Origin: a virus
IMG/VR virus record: IMGVR_UViG_3300007734_000761
Span: 62,001-126,000 of that record
Length of the DNA stretch: 64,000 nucleotides
Direction: 5' to 3' (one strand)
The translations under genes were made by a program, and so were the position numbers. Below, piece after piece: positions 15,673 to 56,489 of this stretch (position 1 is its first letter; each line of letters begins with the position of its first letter). A model generated the notes under the pieces. That model was not told the origin of the DNA. It did no database searches and saw only the letters and a list, made by a program, of their open reading frames with translations.

Positions 15673-16713
15673 TTATTTTTTAGAAGACATAAGATGAGTA
15701 AAAACATTTACTAACCAATTTTCTACATTTGGAATTGAATTACCTAATAAATCTTGTTGATACATTGTAAGAAACTTTGATTTATCCATTGTGTTTTTAG
15801 GTTGAGAAATTAAATCTTCTAATTCTAAAATCATCATTTCTGATAGATTTGGATTATGTAGATCCATTAGTCTTTCATTGATTTTTAGTTGATAACTAAA
15901 CATATCTACACTTTCATACATTGTTCCTTTTGTAGTTTTACTTTTTTCTAAAATATCTTTTAAATTAATTGTTTGTTCTCCTACTAATTCTGGGAAGTTT
16001 TTAATGAGTTTTTTAGGGCCTAACTTAGGAACACCAGGAACATTGTCACTTGAATCACCTAATAAGATTTTTACTTGAAGATAGTTTTGAGGTGGAACAC
16101 CATATTCTTCTTTTACTTTATTAGGATCATAAAACTTCTTTTTAGTAGGTGAGTAAACTGTAATTTTTGGACTTACTAACTGTAAAAAGTCTTGATCTGA
16201 AGACATAATTACTACATCGTGAGTAGGTGCAAATTTCGTGGCAAGATAAGCCATTGTATCGTCTGCTTCTGCTCTGTCAATGGCACACATATCTAAAGGA
16301 AGACATTGTAAATATTCCACGAGTCTTAACAACTGGTTTTCTATTGATTCTGACTCATCTTCTTGGCTTGAAAATCCATCAAAGTTAGTAATTCGTTTTA
16401 GTTTACGGGTTCCTTTATAATCCGGATACAAGTTTTTCTTGTTGAGAGTTGAACCTTCACCTTCAAACGCAATAATAACTCTCGTAGGGTTAGTATGTTT
16501 TATAGCATAACCTACTGATTTTAAGAAACCAGTGAGACCTCCAATGTGATTACCTTTAGGATTTATGTGATTAATAATAGCAAATGAACGTAAAAATGTA
16601 TTCATTGCATCAATAATAAGTACCTTAGGTTGCAAAACAGGACTATTGTCCTGTCTTGCTTTACTAAGTTTATTAATAATCGCTTGAAAATCTGGATCGA
16701 TATTATTCTCCAT
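15673..16713 (-). CDS. 5'-3' exonuclease / RNase H (T4 Rnh, FEN family)
   Basis: 346 residues. The FEN-family active-site acidics are visible: VLIIDAMNTFLRSF near residue 30, VIIAFEGEGS, AIDRAEADDTMAYLA, IMSSDQDFLQL and the helix-three-turn GDSSDNVPGVPKLGPKK. The enzyme removes RNA primers and flaps on the lagging strand. It starts inside the 3' end of uvsX (11-base overlap) and ends 22 bases before the helicase gene. It could act with the short PolA-like polymerase encoded nearby, which lacks its own 5' nuclease. Confidence 0.92.
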   Translation of the reverse strand: MENNIDPDFQAIINKLSKARQDNSPVLQPKVLIIDAMNTFLRSFAIINHINPKGNHIGGLTGFLKSVGYAIKHTNPTRVIIAFEGEGSTLNKKNLYPDYKGTRKLKRITNFDGFSSQEDESESIENQLLRLVEYLQCLPLDMCAIDRAEADDTMAYLATKFAPTHDVVIMSSDQDFLQLVSPKITVYSPTKKKFYDPNKVKEEYGVPPQNYLQVKILLGDSSDNVPGVPKLGPKKLIKNFPELVGEQTINLKDILEKSKTTKGTMYESVDMFSYQLKINERLMDLHNPNLSEMMILELEDLISQPKNTMDKSKFLTMYQQDLLGNSIPNVENWLVNVFTHLMSSKK

Positions 16714-17785
16714 CGTTTACGGCTAAAATACCATTTTTACTTTCATCCCACTCAGATAAGTCTTCTTTAATTTCAAAGTCACCTGCTCCTAATATTGTTA
16801 GCCACTCGTCTTTGTGTTCTTTTTTATATTGATCTACTGCCTTTGGATCATCATCAATAAAACCATGTACTGTTATTATAGTTGTTCCTTTAGTAGTTAC
16901 ACCAGTAACGTGATTTTTATCACACATAATACGAGTACGTTTAGCAAACTCAACGTCTTTACCATTTTTAGTAGCTTTCAACTTACTTGTTCCACTGTTT
17001 GTAACGTTTCCAAATGTTACAATCAAACTTGCGTCAAAAAACATTGTATCACCACCTTTATTTCTCATACGAGGTTGAGACATTGGAGTTTCTGCTGGTG
17101 ATACCCATATTTTATTTACTACTACCATTGTATTTGTATATGGTGTATTAGATTTTCTTGACAAAATGATTTTTTGGTTAATAAAGTTACCAAACTGTTG
17201 ACTCATTGCACCAGCATTCCACTGAGGGTTATTTGAGTTTTTTTCAATACTCATTGAACAAGGTATTGAACCAACTGAATCCCATAAAAATAACAAATCA
17301 TGTGGTAATCTTCCTTTAGCCTGTTCATCTAACAAATCAGCAATAAAACTAGCTACATCTTCAATAGTATTAAGTGAACTTCTGTCTACGTAAATAAAAT
17401 TACCTGTGTAATCTACAATTTCTCCAGTTTCTTCATCTATTACTTCTTCCATTTGGAAGCCCATTTGACGAGCATGATCCCAATTCCATTTCATTTCAGT
17501 AATAATGAACACAGGCAATACACCCATTTTTTGGGCTGATACAGCTGCTTCAATCAATGCTGTTGTTTTACCAGTATCACTATGGCCACGTAACAAGGTT
17601 ATATGGCCCATAGGAATACCGGGTAATGAAAGAACGTCTTGAAATGCTGCTGAAAGTGGAATCCAACGTTGATCTTTAAATGTTACTTGATTGTTACTCA
17701 AGTTTTTTGATTTTTTAAACGATTCAAGGTTAAAGTTTCCTTTGACAGCACCAGAAATAGCTTCTGTTAGTTTTTTCTTAGCCAT
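16703..17785 (-). CDS. uvsX: UvsX/RecA recombinase
   Basis: 360 residues. Walker A GHSDTGKT (67-74), a Walker B-like strand LLFLWDSVGSIP, and MVVVNKIWVSPAETP followed by GGDTMFFDASLIVTFG correspond to RecA-fold loops in T4 UvsX. It forms filaments on single-stranded DNA and drives recombination-dependent replication and repair. It lies 10 bases after the SSB gene and overlaps the exonuclease gene, so these proteins are made together. Confidence 0.93.
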   Translation of the reverse strand: MAKKKLTEAISGAVKGNFNLESFKKSKNLSNNQVTFKDQRWIPLSAAFQDVLSLPGIPMGHITLLRGHSDTGKTTALIEAAVSAQKMGVLPVFIITEMKWNWDHARQMGFQMEEVIDEETGEIVDYTGNFIYVDRSSLNTIEDVASFIADLLDEQAKGRLPHDLLFLWDSVGSIPCSMSIEKNSNNPQWNAGAMSQQFGNFINQKIILSRKSNTPYTNTMVVVNKIWVSPAETPMSQPRMRNKGGDTMFFDASLIVTFGNVTNSGTSKLKATKNGKDVEFAKRTRIMCDKNHVTGVTTKGTTIITVHGFIDDDPKAVDQYKKEHKDEWLTILGAGDFEIKEDLSEWDESKNGILAVNDGE

Positions 17786-38625: not shown

Positions 38626-39210
38626 TTATTTTTGAATAAAACCAATCCCACCCCAATTAGAATCTGCTAAAAACCAAGTTTTTTCACCTTGTAATTCATT
38701 CCAAAAAGTATCAACAAAACATCCTTGAACATGGTGGTTTTCGGTATCTTTAATATCATGAAAACCAATCCATCCCCCAGGCTTAACAAATTCTTTATAC
38801 ATATGATAATCTAATTTTACACCTAAATGTGAATGATCACCATCAATAAATAAAAAGTCTAACTTTCTGTCTCCTATAATAGATTTAACAGAATTATACA
38901 TAGATTCAGCATGAGAATCTCCATCTAAAATATGAACATTTGATCCTAAGCTATAAAGTTTACTATTTCTAGCTTGAATATTAAAAGTATTTTTACCCCA
39001 CGGACCGTGAGCCCAATCTACACTTATTCGAAGACCATCAGGATCTGATACTCTGCTCCAACACACAAAAGTTCCTCCTTGATCTGTTCCTATTTCCATA
39101 AAATTTTTAACGTTTAATTTTTTTACAAATTCAAGAGCATTTTCAATTTCATAAGGATTTTGCATCATTCCTAAATGATAGGCTTCATCAATAATTTCTT
39201 TATTAGTCAT
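38626..39210 (-). CDS. Class I SAM-dependent methyltransferase (CmcI-like)
   Basis: 194 residues. NFMEIGTDQGGTFVCWSRV is the SAM-binding glycine motif, VHILDGDSHAES and LDFLFIDGDHSHLGVKLDY are the acidic strand motifs, and VKPGGWIGFHDI the following strand. The family resembles Methyltransf_24/cephalosporin hydroxylase-like proteins that often modify sugars in surface-polysaccharide clusters. It lies between an FkbM methyltransferase and the GT-A-like protein, so methylation of a transferred sugar is likely. Confidence 0.8.
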   Translation of the reverse strand: MTNKEIIDEAYHLGMMQNPYEIENALEFVKKLNVKNFMEIGTDQGGTFVCWSRVSDPDGLRISVDWAHGPWGKNTFNIQARNSKLYSLGSNVHILDGDSHAESMYNSVKSIIGDRKLDFLFIDGDHSHLGVKLDYHMYKEFVKPGGWIGFHDIKDTENHHVQGCFVDTFWNELQGEKTWFLADSNWGGIGFIQK

Positions 39211-39234: not shown

Positions 39235-39972
39235 TTATTTTTCCAAATTTAATTTAATATTGTTATAATCTTCAAATTTAGGATGAATTGCTATAAAATC
39301 AGAATTAAATTCAGTATTAGGAATAGGGTAAATTTTATATCCTATATTTTTTAAAAATTTAAATACATCATCTTGATATTCTGAGAGAGTTTCAAATAAT
39401 ATGATTGGATGATTTTGTTTAATTGTTTTTATGGCTCCTTGTAAAGTTTTAAGTTCATAGCCTTCTACATCTATTTTTATAAAATGAGGAGATAAATTAT
39501 AACTATCTAAGGTTTTTATGTTAATGTTATTTATTTCTAAATCATCTTCTAAAGATCTTCCACCATAGTTAATTACATCAACATTTCTATTTCCTTCCCA
39601 ATTAACACTACTGTGTTTCCATAAGTCTCCAAAACTACTTTTTTTATTGGTTTCTCCTAAGCCTACATTAAAACAAGTTATTTTATTATCTAATCCATTT
39701 AAAAATACATTTCCACAAAGTTGATTAAATAATGGGAGTTGAGGTTCAAAAGCATAAACTTGTTTAGAATAAAAACCAAAGTTTACAGTATGAAATCCCA
39801 TATGAGCTCCAATGTCTAAAACTACATAATGAGACTTTAATATAGATTTATATAATTCAATTATTTCTGGTTCCCAGATATGTTCGTTATAGATTCTATA
39901 TCCAATGAAATCTTTAGTATTAGTTAAAAAAGAACCATTATTAGTATTTACTATCCAGCAACCTTCTTTCAT
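39235..39972 (-). CDS. FkbM-family methyltransferase
   Basis: 245 residues. SHYVVLDIGAHMGFHTVNFG is the SAM-binding motif, followed by VYAFEPQLPLFNQL, CFNVGLGETN and FIKIDVEGYELKTLQGA, the FkbM signature. FkbM enzymes O-methylate sugars or small molecules. The gene begins 2 bases after the TPR-methyltransferase ends and continues the modification island. The substrate is not visible from sequence; a fibre-linked sugar is a reasonable inference. Confidence 0.87.
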   Translation of the reverse strand: MKEGCWIVNTNNGSFLTNTKDFIGYRIYNEHIWEPEIIELYKSILKSHYVVLDIGAHMGFHTVNFGFYSKQVYAFEPQLPLFNQLCGNVFLNGLDNKITCFNVGLGETNKKSSFGDLWKHSSVNWEGNRNVDVINYGGRSLEDDLEINNINIKTLDSYNLSPHFIKIDVEGYELKTLQGAIKTIKQNHPIILFETLSEYQDDVFKFLKNIGYKIYPIPNTEFNSDFIAIHPKFEDYNNIKLNLEK

Positions 39973-39973
39973 A

Positions 39974-41194
39974 TTATTTCAACATATAATTATCAGCCTT
40001 TTTAACACTATTAGAATTATCAATCATTAAGTTTAATATTTCTGGGTTAATTAAATCAGGGTGTACCCACCAGTCTTCAAAAGTACTATTTTTATCTGGT
40101 GCGATGTCACCAACAACCATAATATATCCCTGATTAGTTAAAAATTGCCGTGATTTTTCTCTATAAAGTTTAGTGTTGTCAGCATAGTAATCATGTTCAT
40201 ATGTAATTGCAGCAAACTTGTATTTGTCAAAGGGAATTTGTTGTAATACTTTATATGTAATTTCTGCTGGTTCACAGTCTATTTGAAGATAATCTATATT
40301 GTGTTTAAAATTAAGATTATTAAATAATTCAGCATAATTTAATGTTAAAGCATCTTGAGTTAATGCTAAATTATTTCTTATTTTTTGGAATTTTTTTATT
40401 TCTTCGGGATTTATATCTATTGAAACTCCATTCCATTTAAATTCTTTTTCTAATAAATAAGTGTTATTATTTAGTATAGGATCAGCACAACCTATTTCTA
40501 CATATGTTCCTTCTTGTTTACCATCTAACATACTTAAAACAAACATATCTTGATAGGTTTGAGAGTAATTTTTTTCTATAGTGTCTGAATTTGCAAATTT
40601 ATACTTTAAATTTTTATGTTGATCTTTAGTATAAGGTAATTTATAAAATCTTTCACCGTTTAGTCCTGCTAAGTTTTTATGAGCTAATCTAGTATGTTCG
40701 TCTGTTAAATTATAGTTTTTAAGTAAATCTTCAAATAAAAATCTAGCCTCATTACAATTACCAACCCACCAAGTAGTTACAGCTTTTTGAAATTGAGGTA
40801 GAAAATTGTAATAATCTATATTAGTTAATGTTGGTTTATAATTATCTTTATATAATAAAGCCATACAAGCTGCTGTGTATGATTCTCTTCTATTTTGGTC
40901 ATTCTCTAAAAAAGAACTTAAAAAACACCAAGCTTCAGGTCTAGTAGGATTACAGTTAATAGCATTTAAAATAGCATTTTTTACAGATTTTGGTCGTCTT
41001 CCTATATATTTTATACACGATATTATTTTAAGTAAAGCTTCATAAACTAAATCTTTATCATTACTAAATTCAGCAGTTCTTAAATAATAAGTTAAAGCAG
41101 TAGCTTTATGATTTTCTAAATCATATTCATATCCTAACCAAAAATTAACTTCTGGGTCGTAAGGATTATTTATAAATTTTATTAAATTATCCAT
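39974..41194 (-). CDS. TPR-like domain fused to FkbM-type methyltransferase
   Basis: 406 residues. The first 200 are paired helices typical of tetratricopeptide-like repeats (YDPEVNFWLGYEYDLEN, KATALTYYLRTAEFSND, RPEAWCFLSSFLEN). From about residue 208 a methyltransferase follows: NYSQTYQDMFVLSMLDGKQE, GTYVEIGCADPILNNNTYLL, WNGVSIDINPEEIKKF, HNIDYLQIDCEPAEITY. TPR fusions of this sort often position a modifying enzyme on a peptide or fibre substrate. It overlaps the GH130-like gene by 8 bases. Confidence 0.8.
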   Translation of the reverse strand: MDNLIKFINNPYDPEVNFWLGYEYDLENHKATALTYYLRTAEFSNDKDLVYEALLKIISCIKYIGRRPKSVKNAILNAINCNPTRPEAWCFLSSFLENDQNRRESYTAACMALLYKDNYKPTLTNIDYYNFLPQFQKAVTTWWVGNCNEARFLFEDLLKNYNLTDEHTRLAHKNLAGLNGERFYKLPYTKDQHKNLKYKFANSDTIEKNYSQTYQDMFVLSMLDGKQEGTYVEIGCADPILNNNTYLLEKEFKWNGVSIDINPEEIKKFQKIRNNLALTQDALTLNYAELFNNLNFKHNIDYLQIDCEPAEITYKVLQQIPFDKYKFAAITYEHDYYADNTKLYREKSRQFLTNQGYIMVVGDIAPDKNSTFEDWWVHPDLINPEILNLMIDNSNSVKKADNYMLK

Positions 41195-42170
41195 TTATTA
41201 TTTCTTCAAAAACTTTTTCAGGTATAGTTAAGGCAAAAGCAGCATTATCTTGAAATCCAAAAGTAATTACAATATTATTATCTATATTTGTTGCCCCACA
41301 AGCAAATTCTATTTTTGCGGTCATAAAATTAAAACTATCTGATGTTTTAACTATATTTCCTTGTTTATCCCATACTATTATTCTATGAGTATAAACAGCA
41401 TCTTTATTATTATTTTCATTACGCCATAAATCTACTTCATGAATTATTCCTATATCATATTTTTTCCAAGAAATAATTTGAGAATTGCCTCTAAGTTGAT
41501 AAGGAGTATTTATTTTAAATTCTTCACCTTGAAATGTTATTTCACTTTTTCCTGTAATAGGATCTACTTTTACTATTTGAGTTGGATTAGTCCATCTTAT
41601 ATAATGATAAGGCTTATCTAAGATAGGCATCCAATTTTTTTCACAGTAAGAATACTCATCTATAGGGGGTTGGATTCTTAATCTTGAAATTTCTTGAACA
41701 ATATCACCTTTAAATATGATTTGAGATAATTCCATTCTGCCTTCTCCATTAGGAGTAGTATCTCGTCTTACACCAGTTAAATATAATTTATTATCCCATT
41801 TAACTAAACGAGCATCTTCTAGTCCAACAAATTCCCAAATAGGAGTTTTGTCAAAATAACGTGTGTCTACTTTATAAGTTTTTTTTACAGATAAATCATT
41901 ATTCAAAACACATAAATAATTTATTGTTTTTAATCTAGCATCATCTTCTGGGTTTAAATAAGCTAAAGGTCCCCAATGAGACTGATATTTTTGTTCATTA
42001 GGGCAATGATACAAAGAATATTCTACATGTCTTACAACACATAGTATTTCATCATCTATAAAAATAGAAGGATTACATATACCTGTACCTCCTGTTAAAT
42101 CAGCAGATATTTTAAGAGGCATTATAGAACCTCCTTTATCTAAAACTAATTTTACTAAATTATCTATCAT
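41187..42170 (-). CDS. GH130-like five-bladed propeller protein
   Basis: 327 residues. ICNPSIFIDDEILCVVRHVE, FVGLEDARLVKWDNKLYLTG and a later EKNWMPILDKPYHYIRW with EFACGATNIDN give the blade pattern of GH130/GH32-like enzymes, which act on mannosides or related glycans as phosphorylases or hydrolases. The EDAR motif commonly holds catalytic or binding residues in GH130. It overlaps the 2OG oxygenase gene by four bases. A glycan-trimming or glycan-binding role is inferred from the island. Confidence 0.65.
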   Translation of the reverse strand: MIDNLVKLVLDKGGSIMPLKISADLTGGTGICNPSIFIDDEILCVVRHVEYSLYHCPNEQKYQSHWGPLAYLNPEDDARLKTINYLCVLNNDLSVKKTYKVDTRYFDKTPIWEFVGLEDARLVKWDNKLYLTGVRRDTTPNGEGRMELSQIIFKGDIVQEISRLRIQPPIDEYSYCEKNWMPILDKPYHYIRWTNPTQIVKVDPITGKSEITFQGEEFKINTPYQLRGNSQIISWKKYDIGIIHEVDLWRNENNNKDAVYTHRIIVWDKQGNIVKTSDSFNFMTAKIEFACGATNIDNNIVITFGFQDNAAFALTIPEKVFEEIING

Positions 42171-42754
42171 TTGTAAGATTCACCTCCTGCCCAAAGTACT
42201 AAGCTTCTTCTTAAACCTGATGTTAATGGTGTTACTCTATGTAAAATAAAAGATGGAAATAAAACTACAGCTCCTTTTTTACGAGGAACAGCAAACGAAC
42301 CATTTCCAGGATGTAATTCTAAATCTCCACCAACATATTCATTAGGGTCTGATAATTGAACAACTACTGATACTTTTCTGTGGTTAATGCCATCAGGACC
42401 TATGTCTAAGTGCCAATCATAATGACCACCATTACCCTCATATTCTGTGTATTGAATATTATCTATAATTGTATGTAAATTAAATCCCCATAAAGTTTTA
42501 TTAGCTTCAGTAACATAACTAGTTATTCTATCATAAACCCATGCCCATTGTTGTTCATATGATAACCACTTAACATTACTTTTTCTTACTGATTCATTTG
42601 GATCGTTTCCAACAATCTGTGCTTTTTGAAATGAGTATTTTTTAGAATCTTTAATAATTTTATCTACTTCTTCTGAAGTAAATCCGTTTTCAAACCAATA
42701 ATAATTAGTTTGATTGATTTCACGATTAAGGGGAAATATAGGCTTTAATTCCAT
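42167..42754 (-). CDS. 2-oxoglutarate/Fe(II) dioxygenase, prolyl-4-hydroxylase-like (PKHD type)
   Basis: 195 residues. The iron ligands are readable as H125-x-D127 in HYDWHLDIG and H182 in LFPSFILHRVTPL, and the 2-oxoglutarate Arg in SGLRRSLVLW (192/193). VSVVVQLSDPNEYVGGDLEL is the central family strand pair. Relatives hydroxylate proline or other residues in proteins. It is the first gene of the modification island and is encoded 39 bases after the LamG adhesin and next to a collagen-like fibre, which makes peptidyl-proline a sensible candidate substrate. Cyanophage and other phage relatives with unknown substrates are also common. Confidence 0.85.
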   Translation of the reverse strand: MELKPIFPLNREINQTNYYWFENGFTSEEVDKIIKDSKKYSFQKAQIVGNDPNESVRKSNVKWLSYEQQWAWVYDRITSYVTEANKTLWGFNLHTIIDNIQYTEYEGNGGHYDWHLDIGPDGINHRKVSVVVQLSDPNEYVGGDLELHPGNGSFAVPRKKGAVVLFPSFILHRVTPLTSGLRRSLVLWAGGESYK

Positions 42755-42793: not shown

Positions 42794-43687
42794 TTATAAA
42801 CCAAATCTTCCTCTTATAGCATCCCAGTTTTGAGCTACTTCTCCAGCAGATAATTCTCTATCGTACATATGGAAAGCAGCAATGTTTCCTGTTAGTCGTC
42901 TAAAATCATATCTAGGGTCACCTCCTAATACTAAAGTATTACCTCCGTTATTTATAATTCCATTTCCTCCACCCGCTGTTCCTGATAAACTACCATTTAA
43001 ATAAATTTTTGTGGCTGTATTACTATATGTACCTACTACTTGATACCAGTTTCCTGCTGTTAAATTAACACCTGTAGTTGCTGCTATAATATTATAACTT
43101 CCTGGAGGATTAGCATTTACATAAAATGAAAGACTTGTAGAACCTAAAGTACCATTTGGATGAAGTAACCACATATTAGATGTTACCCAATCATCTGTAT
43201 TATAAGTTGATTGACCTGCTCCTGCTCCTATAGCCCAAGAACCATTAGCTTTTATCCATATTTCAACTGTAAACTCATTTAAAGGATTAGGACCAGGATT
43301 AGATCCTATATAATCATCAGCACCATCAAAAGTAAAAGATCCACCATTTGTAGGATCCCATCCTCCCCCATTATATAAAGTTCCATCATATGATGGAAAA
43401 CCTCCAGCAACGTCTGTTATACTAGTTCCAAATCCAGGATATGAACCTATAGTAGGCCAAGCATCATAGTTTAATATTAACCCAGATGTTACTATCCATT
43501 GTCCTGTATATCCATACCATTGGTTTGGAGAATAATTAGCACCTCCTGGATTTGTGGGTTGAATGTAACTATAGGCATTTAAAGCACCATAAGTTCCATT
43601 ATAAGCATCTTGTAAATTAAAACTACTACCAGCTCCAAATTCGGAACGAATTTGTCCATATGATATTTGTCCTGAGTAAGGTAACAT
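42794..43687 (-). CDS. Adhesin with LamG/concanavalin-like domain
   Basis: 297 residues. The N-terminal YSGQISYGQIRSEFGAGSSF segment is a virion-attachment type found in phage fibre genes. From about residue 73 a laminin-G-like beta sandwich follows: GGSFTFDGADDYIGSNPG, LNEFTVEIWIKANG, WYQVVGTYSNTATKIYLNGS and NIAAFHMYDRELSAGEV. Such domains bind sugars. The start shares one base with the end of the collagen-like gene, so the two are probably co-expressed as parts of the same fibre network. Confidence 0.75.
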   Translation of the reverse strand: MLPYSGQISYGQIRSEFGAGSSFNLQDAYNGTYGALNAYSYIQPTNPGGANYSPNQWYGYTGQWIVTSGLILNYDAWPTIGSYPGFGTSITDVAGGFPSYDGTLYNGGGWDPTNGGSFTFDGADDYIGSNPGPNPLNEFTVEIWIKANGSWAIGAGAGQSTYNTDDWVTSNMWLLHPNGTLGSTSLSFYVNANPPGSYNIIAATTGVNLTAGNWYQVVGTYSNTATKIYLNGSLSGTAGGGNGIINNGGNTLVLGGDPRYDFRRLTGNIAAFHMYDRELSAGEVAQNWDAIRGRFGL

Positions 43688-46094: not shown

Positions 46095-49000
46095 TTATTC
46101 TCTAATATATTCTGTTATTAATTTATCTACATCTTTACGTTCACCGTATACTACATAATAACAATCTATATTACCTTCTTCAATTCCTATTGTCACTTTT
46201 TCAGGATTAGCTGATATTACATATAAGTTTTGTGGTTTACCTATTGAGGTTAAAGTTACTGTTATAGAATCTTCATGTACTAAATCAGTCCAATAATATG
46301 GTAATTCAATAGTGTTGTTATTAGTTAATCTACCTCTAACATATACACCAATTTCTGGACCTTCAAGTACTGAGTATCTTAATCTCCAAGGTTCTTTTTT
46401 AGTTGGGTGAATAATGTCAAAGTTTTTAATATTACCATTAATAATATCAAAATTAAGAACTCCACCAACAACAGCTCCACCAGGATTTATTGAACCTGCT
46501 CCTAAATCTAAGTTTCCTCCACCAGTGTCTATAGCACCCCCATTAGTATCAATACTACCACCTGCTAAATTAAGATTAGCACCACTATTTAAATTAAGTG
46601 TTGATCCATCAAATGTTAAATTAGCTTCACCATTAATTGTAGATGTACCTGTAGCGGTTAATACATAATTATCTGTATTATTAGTAATAGTAGTTGTACC
46701 TGATGTACCCGATGAACCACTTGAGCCAGATGTACCTGAACTTCCGCTAGTTCCATTTATACCTGATGTACCTGATGAACCTGAACTTCCACTTGTTCCT
46801 GAAGAACCGCTCGTTCCTGAAGTACCTGAAGCTCCGCTAGCTCCTGAAGTACCTGATGAACCACTTGAACCTGAAGTGCCACTTGAACCTGATGAGCCAC
46901 TTGTTCCTGATGAACCACTAGATCCAGATGTGCCTGAAGAACCGCTAGAACCTGAAGTTCCGCTTGAACCACTAGTACCGCTTGAACCTGAAGAACCGCT
47001 AGAACCTGATGTACCAGATGAACCTGAGCTGCCGCTCGTTCCTGATGAACCACTTGATCCACTTGTTCCTGAAGAACCTGAAGAACCACTTGTGCCTGAA
47101 GAACCTGAGGAACCACTTGTGCCTGAAGTACTATTAACTCCGCTTATACCAGAAGTACCAGATGATCCTGATGTTCCACTTGATCCACTTGAACCACTAG
47201 TTCCAGAAGAACCTGAGCTTCCACTTGTTCCTGATGAACCACTAGAACCTGATGTACCAGAAGAACCGCTTGTTCCACTTGAACCTGAAGAGCCTGATGT
47301 TCCACTTGATCCACTAGAACCTGAAGTGCCTGAACTTCCTGAAGTTCCTGATGATCCACTTGTTCCTGAGCTTCCGCTTGAACCTGAAGTGCCTGAACTA
47401 CCTGATGAACCTGATGTACCGCTTGAACCTGAAGAACCACTAGTACCTGAAGAACCTGATGTGCCAGATGATCCACTTGTTCCTGAGTTACCTGATGAAC
47501 CTGATGTTCCTGAACTTCCACTAGAACCACTAGTACCAGATGAACCTGAAGAACCACTTGTTCCGCTTGATCCTGAAGAACCTGATGTGCCTGATGATCC
47601 ACTTGAGCCAGATGTTCCAGAAGTACCGTTAACTCCACTTATACCTGATGTACCTGAGCTGCCACTTGATCCGCTTGTTCCTGAGGAACCTGAAGAACCG
47701 CTTGTTCCTGAACTTCCACTTGAACCTGATGTTCCACTTGATCCACTTGTTCCTGATGAACCCGAAGTTCCTGATGAACCACTTGATCCACTTGTTCCTG
47801 AAGAACCTGAACTTCCTGAAGTACCGCTTGAACCTGATGTGCCACTTGAGCCAGATGTTCCAGAAGAACCTGATGAACCAGACGTTCCTGAAGAACCGCT
47901 AGAACCTGAAGTACCACTTGAACCAGACGTTCCTGAACTACCTGATGTTCCACTTGTTCCAGATGCACCAGAATTTCCAGAAGAACCACTAGAACCTGAT
48001 GTTCCGCTTGAACCTGAACTACCTGAAGTTCCGCTTGAGCCTGATGTTCCTGAAGAACCGCTAGAACCTGAAGTTCCACTTGAACCTGATGAACCAGATG
48101 TTCCTGAAGAACCAGATGTTCCACTAGAACCTGAACTTCCGCTAGTTCCTGAAGAACCTGAAGAACCAGACGTTCCTGAAGAACCGCTAGAACCTGAAGT
48201 GCCAGAACTTCCACTTGAACCAGATGTTCCTGAACTACCACTAGTACCTGATGTACCGTTTACTCCGCTTATACCTGATGTTCCTGAAGATCCTGAGGAA
48301 CCTGATGTTCCACTAGAACCTGAAGAGCCTGATGTGCCAGAGCTACCTGATGTGCCTGATGAACCTGAAGTGCCACTAGAACCACTTGATCCACTTGTTC
48401 CAGATGAACCTGAACTTCCACTTGTTCCAGATGAACCTGATGAGCCACTAGTTCCTGATGATCCGCTTGTTCCTGATGATCCACTTGTACCTGAACTTCC
48501 ACTAGAACCACTAGTACCAGATGAACCTGAGCTTCCTGAAGTGCCTGAAGAACCTGATGTACCACTTGAGCCGCTAGAACCTGATGTTCCTGATGATCCT
48601 GAAGTACCAGATGAACCTGAAGTTCCACTTGAGCCGCTTGATCCAGATGTACCTGAAGAACCTGAGCTTCCACTTGTTCCTGATGAACCACTAGTTCCAC
48701 TTGAGCCAGAAGTACCAGATGAACCAGAAGTTCCTGAAGTACCATTAACACCACTTATACCTGAAGTGCCAGAACTACCACTAGTTCCACTTGAACCTGA
48801 TGTTCCACTAGAACCAGATGTTCCTGATGAACCACTAGTTCCTGAAGAGCCTGAGCTTCCGCTTGTTCCTGATGAACCACTAGTTCCACTTGAGCCAGAC
48901 GAACCTGAAGTTCCACTTGAGCCAGATGAACCTGAAGTTCCAGATGAACCTGATGTTCCTGAACTTCCTGAAGTGCCTGATGATCCTGAACTTCCGCTAG

Positions 49001-52000
49001 TTCCTGATGAACCACTTGAACCTGATGTGCCACTACTACCTGATGAGCCACTTGTTCCGCTTGAACCTGAAGAACCTGATGTACCACTTGATCCACTTGT
49101 TCCACTTGAACCACTAGTACCGGATGAGCCTGAGCTTCCACTTGTACCAGAACTGCCTGAACTGCCTGAAGTTCCAGAAGATCCACTAGTTCCGCTTGAT
49201 CCTGAAGAACCTGATGTACCTGAAGTGCCATTAACACCACTTATACCTGAAGTACCTGATGATCCTGAAGATCCTGATGTACCCGAACTACCAGACGAAC
49301 CTGAAGTGCCTGAAGAACCTGATGTACCTGAGCTACCGCTAGTTCCTGATGAACCACTTGTTCCACTTGAACCTGAACTTCCTGATGTACCCGATGAACC
49401 ACTTGAGCCAGATGTACCTGAACTTCCGCTAGTTCCACTTGAACCTGAAGTTCCTGATGAACCTGACGAGCCACTAGTTCCAGATGAACCTGATGTTCCA
49501 CTTGAACCACTTGTTCCACTAGAGCCTGATGTTCCTGAAGAACCTGAAGAACCACTTGTTCCAGATGAACCACTTGAACCAGATGTTCCTGAACTACCAC
49601 TAGTACCTGATGTACCATTTACTCCGCTTATACCTGATGTTCCACTTGAACCTGATGAACCTGATGTTCCACTAGAACCAGATGATCCTGATGTACCTGA
49701 ACTACCACTTGAGCCAGATGTTCCAGAAGACCCACTAGAACCTGAAGTTCCACTTGAACCTGATGTGCCTGAACTGCCAGAAGTTCCTGAGCTTCCACTT
49801 GTACCTGAAGTTCCTGAGCTACCGCTTGAACCTGAAGTACCTGAACTACCTGATGTTCCAGATGAACCGCTTGAACCTGAAGTGCCCGATGAACCGCTTG
49901 AACCTGATGTTCCGCTTGAACCTGAAGTGCCTGAGCTGCCACTTGAACCTGAGGTTCCGCTTGAACCTGATGTTCCTGAGGTGCCATTTACACCACTTAT
50001 ACCTGATGTACCAGATGAACCTGAAGTACCTGATGAGCCACTTGAACCACTAGTACCAGAAGAACCTGAACTACCTGATGTTCCTGAACTTCCACTAGTT
50101 CCACTTGAACCTGATGTTCCTGAACTTCCTGAAGTACCTGATGATCCCGAAGAACCACTAGTACCAGAAGAACCTGATGAACCTGATGTGCCAGAGCTAC
50201 CTGATGTGCCTGAACTACCTGAAGTACCACTAGAGCCTGATGTTCCTGAAGAACCTGAAGAACCACTTGTGCCTGATGAACCTGAACTTCCACTTGTACC
50301 AGAAGAACCTGATGAACCAGATGTGCCTGATGAACCTGAACTTCCACTTGTACCAGAAGATCCACTAGATCCTGAGGTGCCAGATGAACCTGAAGTGCCA
50401 GAAGAACCACTAGTACCTGATGTACCATTTACTCCGCTTATACCTGATGTTCCTGATGAACCTGATGTTCCTGATGAACCTGATGTTCCTGATGAACCAG
50501 AGCTACCTGAAGTTCCTGATGAACCTGATGTTCCACTAGAACCACTTGTTCCACTTGATCCTGAACTACCACTAGTACCTGAAGATCCACTTGAGCCACT
50601 AGTACCTGAAGAACCTGAAGTACCTGAAGAACCACTAGTACCTGAACTACCACTTGAGCCAGATGTTCCTGAGCTACCTGATGAACCTGATGTACCTGAA
50701 GATCCACTAGTACCTGAAGAGCCTGAAGTACCTGAAGAACCAGAGCTACCTGAAGTACCTGATGAACCTGATGAACCTGAAGTACCACTTGAACCTGATG
50801 TTCCTGAACTGCCAGAAGTACCTGAGCTTCCACTTGAACCTGAAGTTCCTGAACTGCCAGAAGTACCTGAGCTTCCACTTGAACCTGAAGTTCCTGAACT
50901 GCCAGAAGTACCTGAGCTTCCACTTGAACCTGACGTACCACTTGAGCCAGAAGTTCCAGAAGTTCCATTAACTCCACTTATACCTGAAGTGCCTGAAGAT
51001 CCGGATGTACCTGAACTGCCACTTGAGCCAGATGTACCTGAAGAGCCACTTGAACCTGATGTTCCTGATGAACCTGAAGATCCTGAAGTACCTGATGAAC
51101 CGCTTGTTCCACTAGAACCAGATGATCCTGATGTACCTGAACTGCCAGAAGTACCACTTGAACCTGAAGAACCACTTGTTCCACTTGAACCACTTGAACC
51201 TGAGGTGCCACTTGATCCGCTTGTTCCGCTAGAACCCGATGTTCCTGATGAACCACTTGTTCCTGATGAACCGCTTGAACCTGAAGTACCTGATGTACCA
51301 TTTACTCCGCTTATACCTGAAGTACCTGAAGATCCTGATGTACCTGAAGAACCTGATGTTCCTGAAGATCCACTTGAGCCAGATGTTCCTGATGAACCTG
51401 AGCTGCCTGAGGTTCCTGAAGAACCGCTAGTACCGCTTGAACCTGAACTTCCACTTGTTCCACTTGAACCTGATGAACCGGAAGTACCACTACTACCGCT
51501 TGTACCTGATGAACCTGATGATCCTGAAGTACCAGATGAGCCACTTGTTCCTGAAGAACCAGATGTCCCTGAACTTCCTGAAGAACCTGATGTTCCACTT
51601 GAACCACTTGTTCCTGATGAACCAGAGCTGCCTGATGTTCCTGAAGAACCTGAGGTTCCTGATGAGCCACTTGTTCCTGATGAACCTGAAGATCCTGAAG
51701 TACCTGATGAACCGCTTGTTCCTGATGAACCACTAGTACCTGAAGTACCATCTACTCCACTTATACCTGATGTACCACTAGATCCTGAAGATCCTGAAGT
51801 ACCTGATGAACCACTTGAGCCAGATGTTCCTGATGAACCTGATGAACCGCTAGTACCACTTGAACCTGAAGTACCAGATGAACCTGATGTTCCAGAAGAA
51901 CCACTAGTACCTGATGATCCACTAGATCCTGAAGTACCAGATGAACCTGATGAACCTGAGGTTCCTGAAGAACCGCTAGTTCCACTTGAACCTGAGGTTC

Positions 52001-55000
52001 CACTAGAACCCGATGAACCTGAAGTTCCTGAACTTCCTGATGAACCTGATGTGCCGCTTGAACCGCTAGTACCTGATGAACCTGATGTTCCTGATGAGCC
52101 ACTAGTTCCTGAAGAACCGCTTGAACCTGAGGTGCCACTTGAACCACTAGATCCTGAAGTGCCAGATGAACCTGAAGAGCCTGAAGTACCAGATGAACCT
52201 GACGTTCCAGATGAACCTGAAGTTCCAGATGTACCATTTACACCACTTATACCTGATGTACCACTAGATCCTGAAGATCCTGAAGTACCTGATGAACCTG
52301 AAGAACCTGATGTTCCTGAAGAACCTGAGGTTCCTGAAGAACCGCTTGAGCCAGAGGAACCTGAAGATCCGCTTGTTCCACTTGAACCTGAAGACCCAGA
52401 TGTTCCTGATGAACCTGAACTTCCTGAAGTGCCACTTGAACCAGATGTTCCGGATGAACCACTTGTACCACTTGAACCTGAAGAACCTGAGGTTCCAGAT
52501 GAACCTGATGATCCTGAAGTGCCACTACTTCCACTAGTTCCTGAAGAGCCTGAAGTACCAGATGATCCTGAAGATCCTGAAGTTCCACTTGAACCTGAAG
52601 AACCTGAGGTGCCACTTGAACCTGAAGAACCTGAGGTACCACTTGAACCAGAAGTTCCGCTTGAGCCACTAGTACCTGACGAACCGCTAGTGCCTGATGT
52701 ACCATCCACACCACTTATACCTGAAGTACCTGAGCTACCTGAAGTTCCGGATGAACCACTTGAACCAGAAGTTCCGGATGAACCTGAAGTACCACTAGAG
52801 CCTGATGTTCCTGATGAACCACTTGAACCACTTGTTCCGGATGATCCGGAAGTGCCTGATGAACCACTAGTACCTGACGATCCGCTTGAACCAGACGTTC
52901 CTGATGAACCACTTGAACCAGAAGTTCCTGAAGAACCGCTAGTTCCACTTGATCCTGAAGTGCCACTTGAACCTGAAGATCCTGATGTTCCTGATGAACC
53001 ATTTGTTCCACTAGAACCAGATGATCCTGATGTGCCAGATGAACCTGAACTACCACTTGTTCCACTTGAACCTGAAGAACCTGAAGTTCCAGATGAACCT
53101 GATGAGCCACTGGTTCCTGAAGAACCAGAAGTTCCGCTTGAGCCACTAGTACCTGATGTACCGTCAACTCCACTTATACCTGAAGTACCTGAGCTACCGC
53201 TCGTACCTGATGAACCACTTGAGCCAGATGTACCACTAGATCCTGAAGAACCTGATGTTCCACTAGAACCGCTAGTTCCAGATGAGCCTGATGTACCTGA
53301 ACTTCCACTAGTTCCTGATGAACCACTTGAACCACTTGAACCAGAAGTTCCTGAAGAACCACTTGTTCCACTTGAACCACTTGTTCCTGATGAACCTGAC
53401 GTTCCAGATGAACCAGATGTCCCTGAACTTCCTGAAGAACCTGATGTTCCACTTGAACCTGAAGTACCAGATGAACCTGAACTTCCACTAGTTCCTGAAG
53501 AACCAGAAGATCCTGAAGTACCTGATGAACCTGACGTTCCAGATGAACCTGACGTTCCAGATGAACCTGAGCTACCTGCGGTTCCTGAAGAACCACTTGT
53601 CCCAGATGAACCAGAAGTACCTGACGTACCATCAACTCCACTTATACCTGAAGTGCCGCTTGAACCTGAAGTACCAGATGAACCTGAACTTCCGCTAGTT
53701 CCTGATGAACCACTTGAGCCAGATGTACCAGAAGAACCGCTTGTTCCACTTGAACCTGATGTTCCTGAAGAACCTGATGAACCCGAGGTACCTGAACTGC
53801 CACTAGTACCTGATGAACCTGAAGTGCCAGATGAACCTGATGAACCTGAAGTTCCTGAAGAACCTGAGCTGCCTGATGTGCCAGATGAACCTGAGGTTCC
53901 TGAAGAACCACTAGAACCAGACGTTCCTGAGCTGCCTGATGTACCACTAGAACCGCTAGTGCCTGATGAACCTGAAGATCCTGAAGTGCCTGATGAGCCA
54001 CTTGAACCACTTGTACCACTTGAACCTGAAGATCCTGAAGTACCTGATGAACCAGAGGTGCCACTTGAGCCGCTAGTTCCGGATGAACCAGAAGTACCTG
54101 ACGTGCCATCTACTCCACTTATACCTGAAGTACCTGAGCTGCCTGAACTACCTGATGTGCCTGAACTACCAGAGCTGCCTGATGTGCCTGAACTGCCGCT
54201 TGAACCAGATGTACCTGATGAACCACTAGTACCTGAACTACCTGACGTACCACTTGAGCCAGAAGATCCTGAAGTACCAGAACTACCTGACGAACCACTA
54301 GTCCCACTTGAACCTGAACTTCCACTTGTTCCTGATGAACCTGAACTTCCTGACGTACCACTTGAGCCAGAAGTGCCAGAACTACCTGATGTTCCTGATG
54401 AACCACTTGAGCCAGATGTACCTGATGTGCCATCTACTCCACTTATACCTGAAGTACCACTACTTCCTGAGGAACCAGAAGTACCTGATGAACCACTTGT
54501 TCCTGATGAACCTGAAGTGCCACTTGATCCACTAGAACCTGATGTTCCTGAAGAACCTGACGTACCACTTGAGCCGCTTGAACCACTTGTTCCACTTGAA
54601 CCTGATGAACCTGAAGTACCACTAGAACCAGATGTTCCACTACTACCACTTGTACCATCAATCCCAGAAGTACCTGATGAACCACTTGTGCCTGAACTAC
54701 CTGATGTTCCTGATGTTCCGTTTATACCTGAAATTCCAGAAGTTCCTGAGCTGCCACTTGAACCTGAAGTACCACTAGAACCAGAACTACCTGATGTTCC
54801 TGAACTTCCTGAAGAACCTGAGGTTCCACTACTACCACTTGTACCTGATGATCCTGAACTACCTGATGTTCCTGAACTGCCGCTCGTTCCTGATGAACCT
54901 GATGTACCTGAAGATCCTGAAGTGCCTGATGAGCCTGAAGATCCTGAAGTACCGGAACTACCTGAAGTGCCACTTGAACCTGATGTACCACTTGAACCAC

Positions 55001-56489
55001 TAGTGCCTGAGGATCCTGAAGTACCTGATGAGCCACTAGAACCAGAAGTTCCTGAACTACCTGAAGTTCCTGATGAACCTGATGAACCATCAACTCCACT
55101 TAAACCTGAAGTACCCGAAGTACCAGATGAGCCTGATGAGCCACTAGTACCTGATGATCCACTTGTTCCTGAAGAACCTGAACTACCTGACGTGCCACTT
55201 GAGCCAGATGTTCCCGAACTTCCACTTGAACCACTTGTACCTGATGAACCTGAGCTTCCTGAAGTACCAGACGAACCTGATGTTCCTGAACTTCCGCTAG
55301 TTCCACTTGAACCTGAACTTCCACTAGTTCCTGAAGAACCGCTTGAGCCAGATGTTCCCGAACTTCCACTAGTTCCTGAAGAACCGCTTGAGCCAGATGT
55401 ACCTGATGAACCACTTGTTCCACTACTTCCTGAAGTGCCAGATGAGCCTGAGCTACCTGAAGTACCAGATGAACCACTTGTTCCTGAGCTTCCGCTTGTA
55501 CCGGATGAACCTGATGAACCGCTAGTTCCACTTGAACCTGAACTTCCGCTAGTTCCTGAAGAACCACTTGAGCCAGATGTACCTGACGAACCGCTTGTTC
55601 CTGAAGAACCACTTGTTCCACTTGAACCAGATGAACCAGATGTTCCTGAGCTTCCACTTGTTCCACTTGAACCTGAAGTACCTGAAGAACCACTTGAACC
55701 TGAAGTACCTGAAGAACCACTTGAGCCAGATGTGCCTGATGAACCGCTAGTTCCTGATGAACCAGATGTTCCACTTGTTCCGCTTGAACCTGATGTTCCT
55801 GAAGTGCCAGATGAACCGCTAGTACCTGATGAACCACTAGAACCTGATGTTCCACTTGAACCACTTGTACCTGATGAACCAGATGTGCCTGATGAACCTG
55901 AGCTGCCACTTGTACCAGATGAGCCAGATGTTCCTGATGAACCTGACGTGCCTGAACTACCCGAAGTGCCAGAAGAACCAGATGTACCATTTGTACCTGA
56001 AGTACCGTTTGTGCCAGATGTTCCACTAGTTCCTGAAGTTCCTGAACTACCACTAGTTCCTGAGGTTCCTGAACTGCCACTAGTACCTGATGTTCCACTT
56101 GTGCCAGATGTACTAAAATCAGCTATTGGAGCATATGTAAATTGTCCAGAACTAGTATCATATGTTATAAAATAACCTGATGAAGAGTTTTCACTTACTC
56201 CTAAAACTATAAAAGGATTTGAACCTGAAATTAATAATGATCCAGTAATTACAGCTGAACCTGAAAACGGAAATCCTGCTCCTCCACTACCTGAAGAAGC
56301 TATTCCATAACTAACTAATCCTGTTGCTGGATCATATGTTAAATTATATGAGGCTGAAAGATCATTTTCTACTCCAATAAGTGTTAATGGGTTTGAGCCT
56401 GAAATTATTACACTCTCACTAATGCTACCTGTAATAGATAAATCATTAGATAAATACCACCCTAACTGTTCTGGTCTTACTCTTGCCAT
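46095..56489 (-). CDS. Giant Gly-Ser/Thr-Ser triplet fibre (3464 residues) with tail-fibre C-terminal domain
   Basis: Residues 1-126 hold two copies of a beta module (ISGSNPLTLIGVENDLS and ISGSNPFIVLGVSENSS, each followed by a Tyr-rich strand). Residues about 127-3264 are uninterrupted triplets G-T-S or G-S-S, about 1046 of them, with Gly strictly every third position and no proline; modules of the type GISGVNGTSGTSG recur through it. The last 200 residues are a beta-rich stem then a phage fibre domain (WRLRYSVLEGPEIGVYVRGR, IELPYYWTDLV). About two thirds of the repeat is Ser or Thr, a dense potential O-glycosylation surface. It follows the gp15-like gene by one base. Confidence 0.85.
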   Translation of the reverse strand: MARVRPEQLGWYLSNDLSITGSISESVIISGSNPLTLIGVENDLSASYNLTYDPATGLVSYGIASSGSGGAGFPFSGSAVITGSLLISGSNPFIVLGVSENSSSGYFITYDTSSGQFTYAPIADFSTSGTSGTSGTSGSSGTSGTSGSSGTSGTSGTSGTNGTSGTNGTSGSSGTSGSSGTSGSSGTSGSSGTSGSSGSSGTSGSSGTSGSSGTSGSSGSSGTSGSSGTSGTSGSSGTSGTSGSSGTSGSSGTSGSSGSSGTSGSSGSSGTSGSSGTSGSSGTSGSSGSSGTSGSSGTSGSSGTSGSSGSSGTSGSSGSSGTSGSSGSSGTSGSSGTSGSSGTSGSSGSSGTSGSSGTSGSSGTSGSSGSSGTSGSSGTSGSSGSSGTSGSSGSSGTSGSSGTSGSSGTSGSSGSSGTSGSSGSSGTSGSSGTSGSSGSSGTSGSSGTSGSSGSSGTSGTSGLSGVDGSSGSSGTSGSSGTSGSSGSSGTSGSSGTSGSSGTSGSSGTSGSSGTSGSSGSSGTSGSSGTSGSSGTSGSSGTSGSSGSSGTSGSSGTSGSSGSSGTSGSSGSSGTSGSSGSSGTSGISGINGTSGTSGSSGTSGSSGTSGIDGTSGSSGTSGSSGTSGSSGSSGTSGSSGSSGTSGSSGTSGSSGSSGTSGSSGTSGSSGTSGSSGSSGTSGISGVDGTSGTSGSSGSSGTSGSSGTSGSSGTSGSSGSSGTSGSSGSSGTSGSSGSSGTSGSSGSSGTSGSSGTSGSSGTSGSSGSSGTSGSSGSSGTSGSSGSSGTSGISGVDGTSGTSGSSGTSGSSGTSGSSGTSGSSGSSGTSGSSGSSGTSGSSGSSGTSGSSGTSGSSGTSGSSGSSGTSGSSGTSGSSGSSGTSGSSGSSGTSGSSGTSGSSGTSGSSGSSGTSGSSGTSGSSGTSGSSGSSGTSGSSGSSGTSGSSGTSGISGVDGTSGTSGSSGTSGSSGTAGSSGSSGTSGSSGTSGSSGTSGSSGSSGTSGSSGSSGTSGSSGTSGSSGSSGTSGSSGTSGSSGTSGSSGTSGSSGTSGSSGSSGSSGTSGSSGTSGSSGTSGSSGTSGSSGSSGTSGSSGSSGTSGSSGTSGISGVDGTSGTSGSSGTSGSSGTSGSSGSSGTSGSSGSSGTSGSSGSSGTSGSSGSSGTNGSSGTSGSSGSSGTSGSSGTSGSSGTSGSSGSSGTSGSSGSSGTSGSSGTSGSSGTSGSSGSSGTSGSSGTSGSSGTSGSSGSSGTSGSSGTSGISGVDGTSGTSGSSGTSGSSGTSGSSGTSGSSGSSGTSGSSGSSGTSGSSGSSGTSGSSGTSGSSGTSGSSGSSGTSGSSGSSGTSGSSGTSGSSGTSGSSGSSGTSGSSGSSGTSGSSGSSGSSGSSGTSGSSGTSGSSGSSGTSGSSGSSGTSGISGVNGTSGTSGSSGTSGSSGTSGSSGSSGTSGSSGSSGTSGSSGSSGTSGSSGTSGSSGTSGSSGTSGSSGSSGTSGSSGSSGTSGSSGTSGSSGTSGSSGSSGTSGSSGSSGTSGSSGTSGSSGTSGSSGTSGSSGSSGTSGSSGSSGTSGSSGSSGTSGISGVDGTSGTSGSSGTSGSSGTSGSSGSSGTSGSSGTSGSSGTSGSSGSSGTSGSSGTSGSSGSSGTSGSSGTSGSSGTSGSSGSSGTSGSSGTSGSSGSSGTSGSSGSSGTSGSSGTSGSSGSSGTSGSSGSSGTSGSSGTSGSSGTSGISGVNGTSGTSGSSGSSGTSGSSGTSGSSGTSGSSGTSGSSGSSGTSGSSGSSGTSGSSGTSGSSGSSGTSGSSGTSGSSGSSGTSGSSGSSGTSGSSGSSGTSGSSGTSGISGVNGTSGTSGSSGTSGSSGSSGTSGSSGTSGSSGSSGTSGSSGTSGSSGSSGTSGSSGTSGSSGTSGSSGSSGTSGSSGSSGTSGSSGTSGSSGTSGSSGSSGTSGSSGSSGTSGSSGTSGSSGTSGSSGSSGTSGSSGSSGTSGSSGTSGSSGTSGSSGSSGTSGSSGTSGSSGTSGISGVNGTSGTSGSSGTSGSSGTSGSSGSSGTSGSSGSSGTSGSSGSSGTSGSSGSSGTSGSSGSSGTSGSSGTSGSSGTSGSSGTSGSSGSSGTSGSSGSSGTSGSSGTSGSSGTSGSSGTSGSSGSSGTSGSSGSSGTSGSSGTSGISGVNGTSGTSGSSGTSGSSGSSGTSGSSGTSGSSGSSGTSGSSGSSGTSGSSGTSGSSGSSGTSGTSGSSGTSGSSGTSGSSGTSGSSGSSGTSGSSGSSGTSGSSGSSGTSGSSGSSGTSGISGVNGTSGTSGSSGTSGSSGSSGTSGSSGSSGTSGSSGTSGSSGTSGSSGTSGSSGSSGTSGSSGTSGSSGTSGSSGSSGTSGSSGSSGTSGSSGTSGSSGTSGSSGTSGSSGSSGTSGSSGSSGTSGISGVNGTSGTSGSSGSSGTSGSSGTSGSSGSSGTSGSSGSSGTSGSSGTSGSSGTSGSSGSSGTSGSSGSSGTSGSSGSSGTSGSSGSSGTSGSSGTSGSSGTSGSSGSSGTSGSSGSSGTSGSSGTSGSSGSSGTSGSSGTSGSSGTSGSSGTSGSSGTSGISGVNGTSGTSGSSGTSGSSGTSGSSGTSGSSGSSGTSGSSGSSGTSGSSGTSGSSGTSGSSGSSGTSGSSGTSGSSGSSGTSGSSGSSGTSGSSGTSGSSGTSGSSGSSGTSGSSGSSGTSGSSGSSGTSGSSGTSGSSGTSGSSGSSGTSGSSGSSGTSGISGVNGTSGTSGSSGTSGSSGSSGTSGSSGSSGTSGSSGSSGTSGSSGSSGTSGSSGTSGSSGSSGTSGSSGSSGTSGSSGTSGSSGSSGTSGSSGSSGNSGASGTSGTSGSSGTSGSSGTSGSSGSSGTSGSSGSSGTSGSSGTSGSSGTSGSSGSSGTSGSSGSSGTSGSSGTSGSSGTSGSSGSSGTSGSSGSSGTSGSSGSSGTSGISGVNGTSGTSGSSGSSGTSGSSGSSGTSGSSGSSGTSGSSGSSGTSGSSGNSGTSGSSGTSGSSGTSGSSGSSGTSGSSGSSGTSGSSGSSGTSGSSGTSGSSGTSGSSGSSGTSGSSGSSGTSGSSGTSGSSGSSGTSGSSGSSGTSGSSGSSGTSGSSGTSGISGVNSTSGTSGSSGSSGTSGSSGSSGTSGSSGSSGTSGSSGSSGTSGSSGSSGSSGTSGSSGTSGSSGSSGTSGSSGSSGTSGSSGSSGTSGSSGSSGTSGASGASGTSGTSGSSGTSGSSGSSGTSGINGTSGSSGTSGSSGSSGTSGTTTITNNTDNYVLTATGTSTINGEANLTFDGSTLNLNSGANLNLAGGSIDTNGGAIDTGGGNLDLGAGSINPGGAVVGGVLNFDIINGNIKNFDIIHPTKKEPWRLRYSVLEGPEIGVYVRGRLTNNNTIELPYYWTDLVHEDSITVTLTSIGKPQNLYVISANPEKVTIGIEEGNIDCYYVVYGERKDVDKLITEYIRE
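46698..56111 (-). repeat. 9.4 kb nine-base-periodic repeat encoding G-[T/S]-S triplets
   Basis: The protein is almost invariant while the DNA uses many synonymous codons (GGT, GGA, GGC; TCA, AGT, AGC, TCT; ACA, ACT, ACG). About 19 spacer modules (GISGVNG, GISGVDG, GLSGVDG, GINGTSG) divide it into units of roughly 280-630 bases; their plus-strand mark cttatacc occurs near 47143, 47640, 48270, 48758, 49240, 49628, 49998, 50438 and onwards to 54445. Confidence 0.92.

Follow-up and report, generated by a model that had tools for sequence, protein, structure and literature searches.

A proline-free, collagen-patterned serine/threonine array in a probable tail-fibre gene of a T4-like phage

The locus and its structural genes

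The window analysed here is a stretch of 64,000 nucleotides, corresponding to bases 62001-126000 of a virus record of 176,311 bases, and its relevant features are collected in Table 1. A gene for a tail-fibre-like protein, most of which is a Gly-X-Y array, lies with the Gp23 major capsid gene on one side and the tail sheath gene on the other. The capsid protein is 49% identical to that of Flavobacterium phage immuto, and the 'putative tail fiber-like protein' of immuto carries the same C-terminal domain and occupies the same slot between the capsid and sheath genes. By gene order and homology, the gene belongs to the tail region of a T4-like phage, and its location together with its homology to annotated fibre proteins is what would be looked for in a tail-fibre gene. 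Both collagen-like genes of the window gave matches above the cut-off to Pfam Collagen (PF01391), while a Pfam search with the N-terminal region returned no match. An open frame of 3099 aa runs antisense to the array (46876-56175, plus strand) and was rejected, since it is the minus-strand frame that shows the Gly period, runs the same way as its neighbours and is conserved at its ends; the antisense frame is probably a side effect of the repeat's codon pattern.

Table 1. Features of the collagen-patterned gene and its neighbours (window coordinates)
Feature	Position	Strand	Remarks
Tail-fibre-like protein, whole gene, 3464 aa	46095..56489	-	ORF; co-directional with adjacent structural genes
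N-terminal region, 128 aa	56106..56489	-	Two-fold internal repeat, seen by eye; 4 of the 7 records searched have relatives
997 unbroken Gly-X-Y triplets (aa 129-3119)	47133..56105	-	Pro-free
Gly-to-Ser break, aa 3120	47130..47132	-	Only break in the array
48 further Gly-X-Y triplets	46692..47123	-	Past the break
Linker	46449..46691	-	Joins array to C-terminal domain
C-terminal domain, 117 aa	46095..46448	-	All-beta model
Second collagen-like gene, 797 aa	43687..46080	-	Pro-containing; Peptidase_S74 (endosialidase chaperone) tip, Pfam Peptidase_S74
Laminin_G_3 / concanavalin-A-like lectin domain protein	42794..43687	-
2OG-Fe(II) oxygenase	42167..42754	-	Nearest solved sequences are PKHD-type hydroxylases
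327-aa protein	41187-42170	-	Without Pfam match
FkbM-type methyltransferase	39974..41194	-	Below Pfam cut-off; weak glycosyltransferase PHROG match
FkbM methyltransferase	39235..39972	-
Methyltransf_24 family protein	38626..39210	-
Double glycosyltransferase, 758 aa	35392..37668	-	Glycos_transf_1 + Glyco_transf_9; relatives adjoin collagen-pattern genes

A model of the C-terminal domain, built from 47 sequences, is all-beta (pLDDT 85.4, pTM 0.67). The best structural matches to its residues 31-108 are the C-terminal domains of tail fibres and tailspikes, with Z values of 8.1 to 5.3 (Pam1 tailspike, 8.1; K64-1 depolymerase, 6.0; R2 pyocin fibre, 5.8; AP22 gp53 fibre, 5.8), and H-type lectins follow at 5.0-5.3; these values are middling, and according to the tool's own warning a Z below 8 can mean a common arrangement. 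Foldseek with the same model gave no match at E < 0.001, and none was found when a profile of the domain was compared with the sequences of solved structures. H-type lectins and fibre or spike tips of this kind are trimers, which fits a shaft of three chains. The C-terminal part of the protein was matched in 45 phage records, among them cyanophages and immuto. Four of these named-phage relatives were examined (immuto gp218 and cyanophage homologues); they have the C-terminal domain in common with the window gene and, for immuto, the position in the gene order, but they carry no long Gly-X-Y array, against 1046 triplets here. Gly-X-Y runs of at least 8 triplets, several of them exceeding 400, occur in 11 of 80 listed viral-contig loci that have the domain.

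Composition, age and relatives of the array

Gly occupies 1045 of 1046 consecutive third positions, the near-unbroken period that marks a collagen pattern. The array holds no Pro, a residue in which collagens are usually, though not obligatorily, rich, and all 13 Pro of the protein are in its ends; Lys is also absent. Position X is taken by Ser (568) and Thr (432), the remainder being Ile, Val, Asn, Ala or Leu, and position Y by Ser (1019), Asn (16), Asp (8), Thr (1) and Ala (1), so that 97% of the X and Y residues are Ser or Thr. As in Bucl3-type repeats, GSS (568) and GTS (427) triplets predominate, making up 95% of the 1045; the others are mainly GIS-GV(N/D) spacers, which recur about every 50 triplets with the Gly phase retained. 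The initial annotation had described about 1046 triplets without Pro, with X and Y almost only Ser or Thr even in the spacers. The count and the lack of Pro are borne out, with coordinates that were off by 6 bases; the composition holds for the array but not for the spacers, which are in phase and not of Ser/Thr only. Its broader claim, a collagen-patterned, Pro-free Ser/Thr shaft encoded in a phage structural gene, is supported.

A 38-base pattern for Gly-(S/T)-(S/T) matched the window 184 times, where 100 shuffles gave a mean of 0 matches, and the array is therefore not a product of chance. Identical 15-residue stretches within it (55,043 pairs) share a mean of 67.1% of their bases, where 66.8% would be expected if codons were drawn independently. 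Synonymous sites are saturated: the copies are old and their DNA has drifted while the amino-acid pattern was kept, which argues against recent slippage. The two main triplets are also not randomly ordered. One or two GSS separate successive GTS in 367 of 398 gaps, compared with about 156 expected from 1000 shuffles, and adjacent GTS-GTS pairs number 28 where shuffling predicts 172. In 48 long arrays of the wider class, GTS neighbours were depleted in 31 (z < -2) and enriched in 5 (z > 2), so this spacing is common, not universal.

The nearest relatives among the listed matches have main arrays of 1046 (G001), 1037 (G002), 1053 (G108) and about 1053 triplets (G003, frame-broken), where G003 is, judged by its ends, of the same lineage as G108. 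In G001 and G002 an inserted domain is preceded by 73 and 66 additional triplets, and array totals across the window and these near relatives range from 1046 to 1119 triplets. The frame break in G003 (L016, 5519-5528) is absent from the same lineage in G108 and is likely a sequencing or assembly error. Three lineages are represented (window; G001/G002; G108/G003), and between them the order of Thr and Ser triplets is 0.45-0.49 identical in registers matched at the start or the end and the same at other offsets, so that conservation of register between relatives was rejected. The length of the main run stays within about 1.5% in the three lineages while the order of triplets has been remade, which suggests selection on the length of the array.

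More distant arrangements also occur. An N-terminally related gene (L114) has 329 triplets, and another with an 87% identical N-terminal stretch (L500) has 717 Ser/Thr triplets followed by Pro-type segments and an S74-like tip, the tip being identified by eye because it looks like the S74 protein of the window. Within the L500 chain, stretches of Ser/Thr and of Pro-type triplets alternate; one passage between them (GAQGAAGTSGSSG) is in unbroken Gly phase, and the others go via a short GVSIT step. These joins are the best sequence evidence that Ser/Thr and Pro-type triplets may share one chain architecture. The whole stretch (L500, 9271-18999) looks as if the two adjoining fibre genes of the window had been fused.

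The pattern is found well beyond these relatives. A search of viral contigs for seven Gly-(S/T)-(S/T) triplets gave at least 120 stretches; 77 of the 80 loci listed from it yielded a frame, a few being trivial short repeats, and 35 of 40 further viral loci had a Ser/Thr run of at least 20 triplets. In the bacterial genomes scanned, runs of that length were seen at 8 of 119 loci. A tblastn search of phages with the repeat peptide gave no match, for which the low-complexity filter is the likely cause. Thr placement was counted in a pool of 162 genes, reduced to 128 distinct ones (85 Ser/Thr type, 34 Pro type and 9 unclassed), with loci L174-L213 left out. The 85 Ser/Thr-type viral genes comprise 18,554 triplets with 67 Pro, and have Thr 7932 times at X and 529 times at Y, X exceeding Y in 81 genes; shared descent of the repeats is possible, so these are not to be read as 85 independent events. 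Since the search pattern permitted Ser or Thr at either position, the preference was not built in. The 34 Pro-type genes of the same pool have Thr 416 times at X and 1073 times at Y (Y above X in 22, X above Y in 11). Published bacterial collagens place Thr at Y, where it accounts for 48.3% of residues in those of Gram-positives and for 31.6% across all bacteria (PMC8968730; PMC3368898), and the placement read from the Ser/Thr viral genes is the reverse. Two Burkholderia genomes have GTS-dominated runs of 87 and 68 triplets (L337, L351) with Thr almost only at X, so the habit is not confined to viruses. Judged from these sequences, Pro-free Ser/Thr Gly-X-Y viral proteins are a widespread and little-described class outside the usual composition rules of collagens; in the open-access literature, to which the search was largely confined, with most subscription papers outside its scope, no paper on such repeats in phages was found.

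Glycosyltransferases and the neighbouring cassette

Downstream of the array gene lie the second, Pro-containing fibre gene and a set of putative modifying enzymes. The oxygenase is encoded two genes after the Pro-type collagen and could hydroxylate that fibre. By eye, the first part of the cassette order is kept in L016, through the oxygenase and an FkbM-like protein. The L016 counterpart of the 327-aa protein presumably resembles GH130-type phosphorylases, to go by a motif that we recognize in it, and the corresponding cassette of this contig also has a radical-SAM-like protein (16440-17285), identified by eye from its cysteine motif. In G004, a 59% identical relative of the double glycosyltransferase is found on the same strand, downstream of the Ser/Thr gene of that contig.

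Type-1 glycosyltransferases (PF00534) are present in 25 of 50 contigs with Ser/Thr repeats and in 2 of 50 controls. The former were taken from 80 listed loci, 17 of which were removed as weak, duplicate or off-type, leaving 63, and 13 more because their runs were short or contained Pro or their contig was already represented; the controls were 50 of 69 loci that have the C-terminal domain without Gly-X-Y runs. Matches above cut-off numbered 41 in 3.39 Mb of Ser/Thr contigs, against 2 in 1.53 Mb of controls, and among contigs of 20-130 kb only, 17 of 31 compared with 1 of 21 had a match; some of the controls belong to other phage groups, and host lineage could explain part of this enrichment. 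Of the 41 frames, 24 are 600-880 aa long, the size of the double enzyme. Within contigs, PF00534 genes lie only a little nearer to the Ser/Thr gene than random placement would put them (15 of 25 at 10 kb or less, 10.6 expected), and this proximity was rejected as stand-alone evidence because it is too weak. At two loci (L145 and L146, in contigs G036 and G037) a very large glycosyltransferase frame, of 1527 and 1458 aa respectively, lies on the strand opposite to a long Ser/Thr array and no more than about 4 kb from it.

The association was also followed from the enzyme, in 156 loci from searches with the enzyme and the tail sheath. Collagen-pattern genes were found at 39 of 92 loci with the double enzyme (21 of Ser/Thr and 18 of Pro type), against 0 of 64 tail-sheath loci without it. 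With the glycosyltransferase genes lying in the same cassette and being enriched on contigs with such arrays, glycosylation of the shaft is plausible. A different role for the enzymes is a real possibility, which we hold at less than even weight: the glycosyltransferases and methyltransferases would act on host surface sugars during infection, excluding other phages, and not on the fibre, hence their place in a variable host-recognition region. This has been proposed for pelagimyophages, whose host-recognition cluster is described as containing tail fibres and many glycosyltransferases (PMC7029224). It would also suit the many enzyme loci that have no Ser/Thr gene nearby: of the 50 enzyme loci whose available upstream flank measures 3 kb or more, 22 have no collagen-pattern gene in it and 18 have one of Pro type. 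When 37 enzyme-bearing contigs were re-examined (16 with Pro type as nearest collagen, 4 with a known Ser/Thr gene and 17 with neither kind in the flank), Ser/Thr arrays were present elsewhere in 9 of the 16 and 4 of the 17. Action on host sugars accounts less readily for the enrichment on Ser/Thr contigs, or for the direct adjacency seen at 9 loci (4 clusters at 95% identity), where a relative of the double enzyme starts about 70 bases past a Ser/Thr Gly-X-Y gene.

A fibre model and its comparison with known collagens

Very probably, the array serves as the shaft of a tail fibre. The balance of probability tips, by a little, towards a homotrimeric tail fibre of a T4-like phage, with a collagen-patterned shaft, a lectin-like knob and, probably, a decoration of sugars. 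In such a fibre the N-terminal region would provide attachment, and three parallel chains would form the shaft, with Gly in the core and two outward-facing edges, one of Thr/Ser (X) and the other of Ser (Y). The lectin-like C-terminal knob would hold the three chains together as a trimer and make contact with the cell, where it may bind a receptor. Lacking Pro, the shaft could fold without cis-trans prolyl delays, and it would be held by its length, its trimeric ends and hydration. O-linked sugars on Thr and Ser at X, added by the phage glycosyltransferases of the same cassette, would probably stiffen or coat it. Taking the collagen rise as about 0.86 nm per triplet (PMC7824840), a triple-helical array of 1046 triplets would be about 0.9 micrometre long. 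A point against the model is that published bacterial collagens do not use its combination of Thr at X and Ser at Y.

Whether the array forms a rod at all has to be weighed. Unmodified Gly-Ser linkers are commonly disordered, and the array might be a flexible, unstructured (mucin-like) tether, glycosylated or not, that keeps the knob on a long and soft leash, the three-residue period merely reflecting the origin of the repeat. The lack of a conserved Thr/Ser order between relatives at any offset would agree with this. We nevertheless consider a tether rather unlikely, as it would have no need for Gly at 1045 of 1046 positions when synonymous sites are saturated, for separate X and Y rules across 85 genes, or for in-phase alternation with Pro-type triplets. 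Improbable, in turn, is another fold with a three-residue period, the polyglycine-II or PPII bundle known from the snow-flea antifreeze protein and a phage adhesin. It could accommodate the absence of Pro and a Thr/Ser pattern that puts Thr on one edge only, but a parallel bundle of chains of about 3100 residues would presumably be hard to fold, and the in-phase joins in L500 favour collagen. That a short repeat was inflated by assembly or sequencing is exceedingly improbable, for although repeats are hard to assemble and the L016 array has its frame break, independent contigs have similar totals, the DNA copies are too diverged to be confused and the G003 lineage is unbroken in G108, so that the collapse or expansion for which the initial annotation had proposed a check is not borne out (main runs of 1037-1053 triplets).

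The trimeric fibre model can be extended, more tentatively, to a widespread class of phage glyco-collagens with Pro-free fibres of Gly-(Thr/Ser)-Ser. Thr at X of every second or third triplet would be the sugar site for double glycosyltransferases, a length of about 1046 triplets would be selected in the lineage while triplet order is free, and the product would be a rod of about 0.9 micrometre that sets the reach of the virion. If this is true, phages build collagen-patterned rods without the Pro thought to stabilise the helix, on a scale (about 3100 residues of repeat) that would carry them most of a micrometre out from the virion. They would offer a natural, genetically simple test of the minimal needs of the collagen helix and of sugars replacing Pro, a reason for the glycosyltransferases often present in phage host-recognition regions, and a case in which the length of a shaft is seemingly selected and the order of its sequence is not.

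In the glyco-threonine collagens of the annelid and vent-worm cuticle type, the sugar-bearing Thr stands at Y. The array has Thr 432 times at X and once at Y, and the analogy with animal glyco-threonine collagens drawn in the initial annotation is thus not supported in its known form. Sugar may also not be strictly required, since for a (GAS)19 repeat, also free of Pro and produced in E. coli, a shallow triple-helix CD signal at 25 C has been described (PMC7682875), which makes a Pro-free triple helix feasible. Pro-free Gly-Ala-Ser and Gly-Thr-Ser repeats are already known, having been published for Burkholderia; what is new lies in the composition rule, the scale of the array and the association with the enzymes. 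Bucl3 of Burkholderia shares the Pro-free GTS and GSS triplets of the array, but is a bacterial surface protein with 38-63 triplets, against 1046 in a phage gene here, and the melting predicted for the Bucl proteins, Bucl3 included, is given as 20-35 C (PMC4565658). The (GAS)n repeat of Burkholderia Bucl8 is likewise free of Pro, consists of small residues and has Ser at Y, but it has about 20 triplets, carries Ala at X and is part of an efflux-pump protein (PMC7682875). Mimivirus resembles the window in encoding both a collagen and a modifying enzyme (the L230 hydroxylase/glycosyltransferase), but the target there is Lys, which the array lacks, and the enzyme families are different (PMC9614988). 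The EPclA side-tail proteins of E. coli prophages are phage tail proteins, too, with a Gly-X-Y shaft between end domains, and were found to be trimeric in experiment; their shaft is short, with Pro at 48% of X and Thr at 20% of Y, whereas the array has no Pro and has its Thr at X (PMC3368898).
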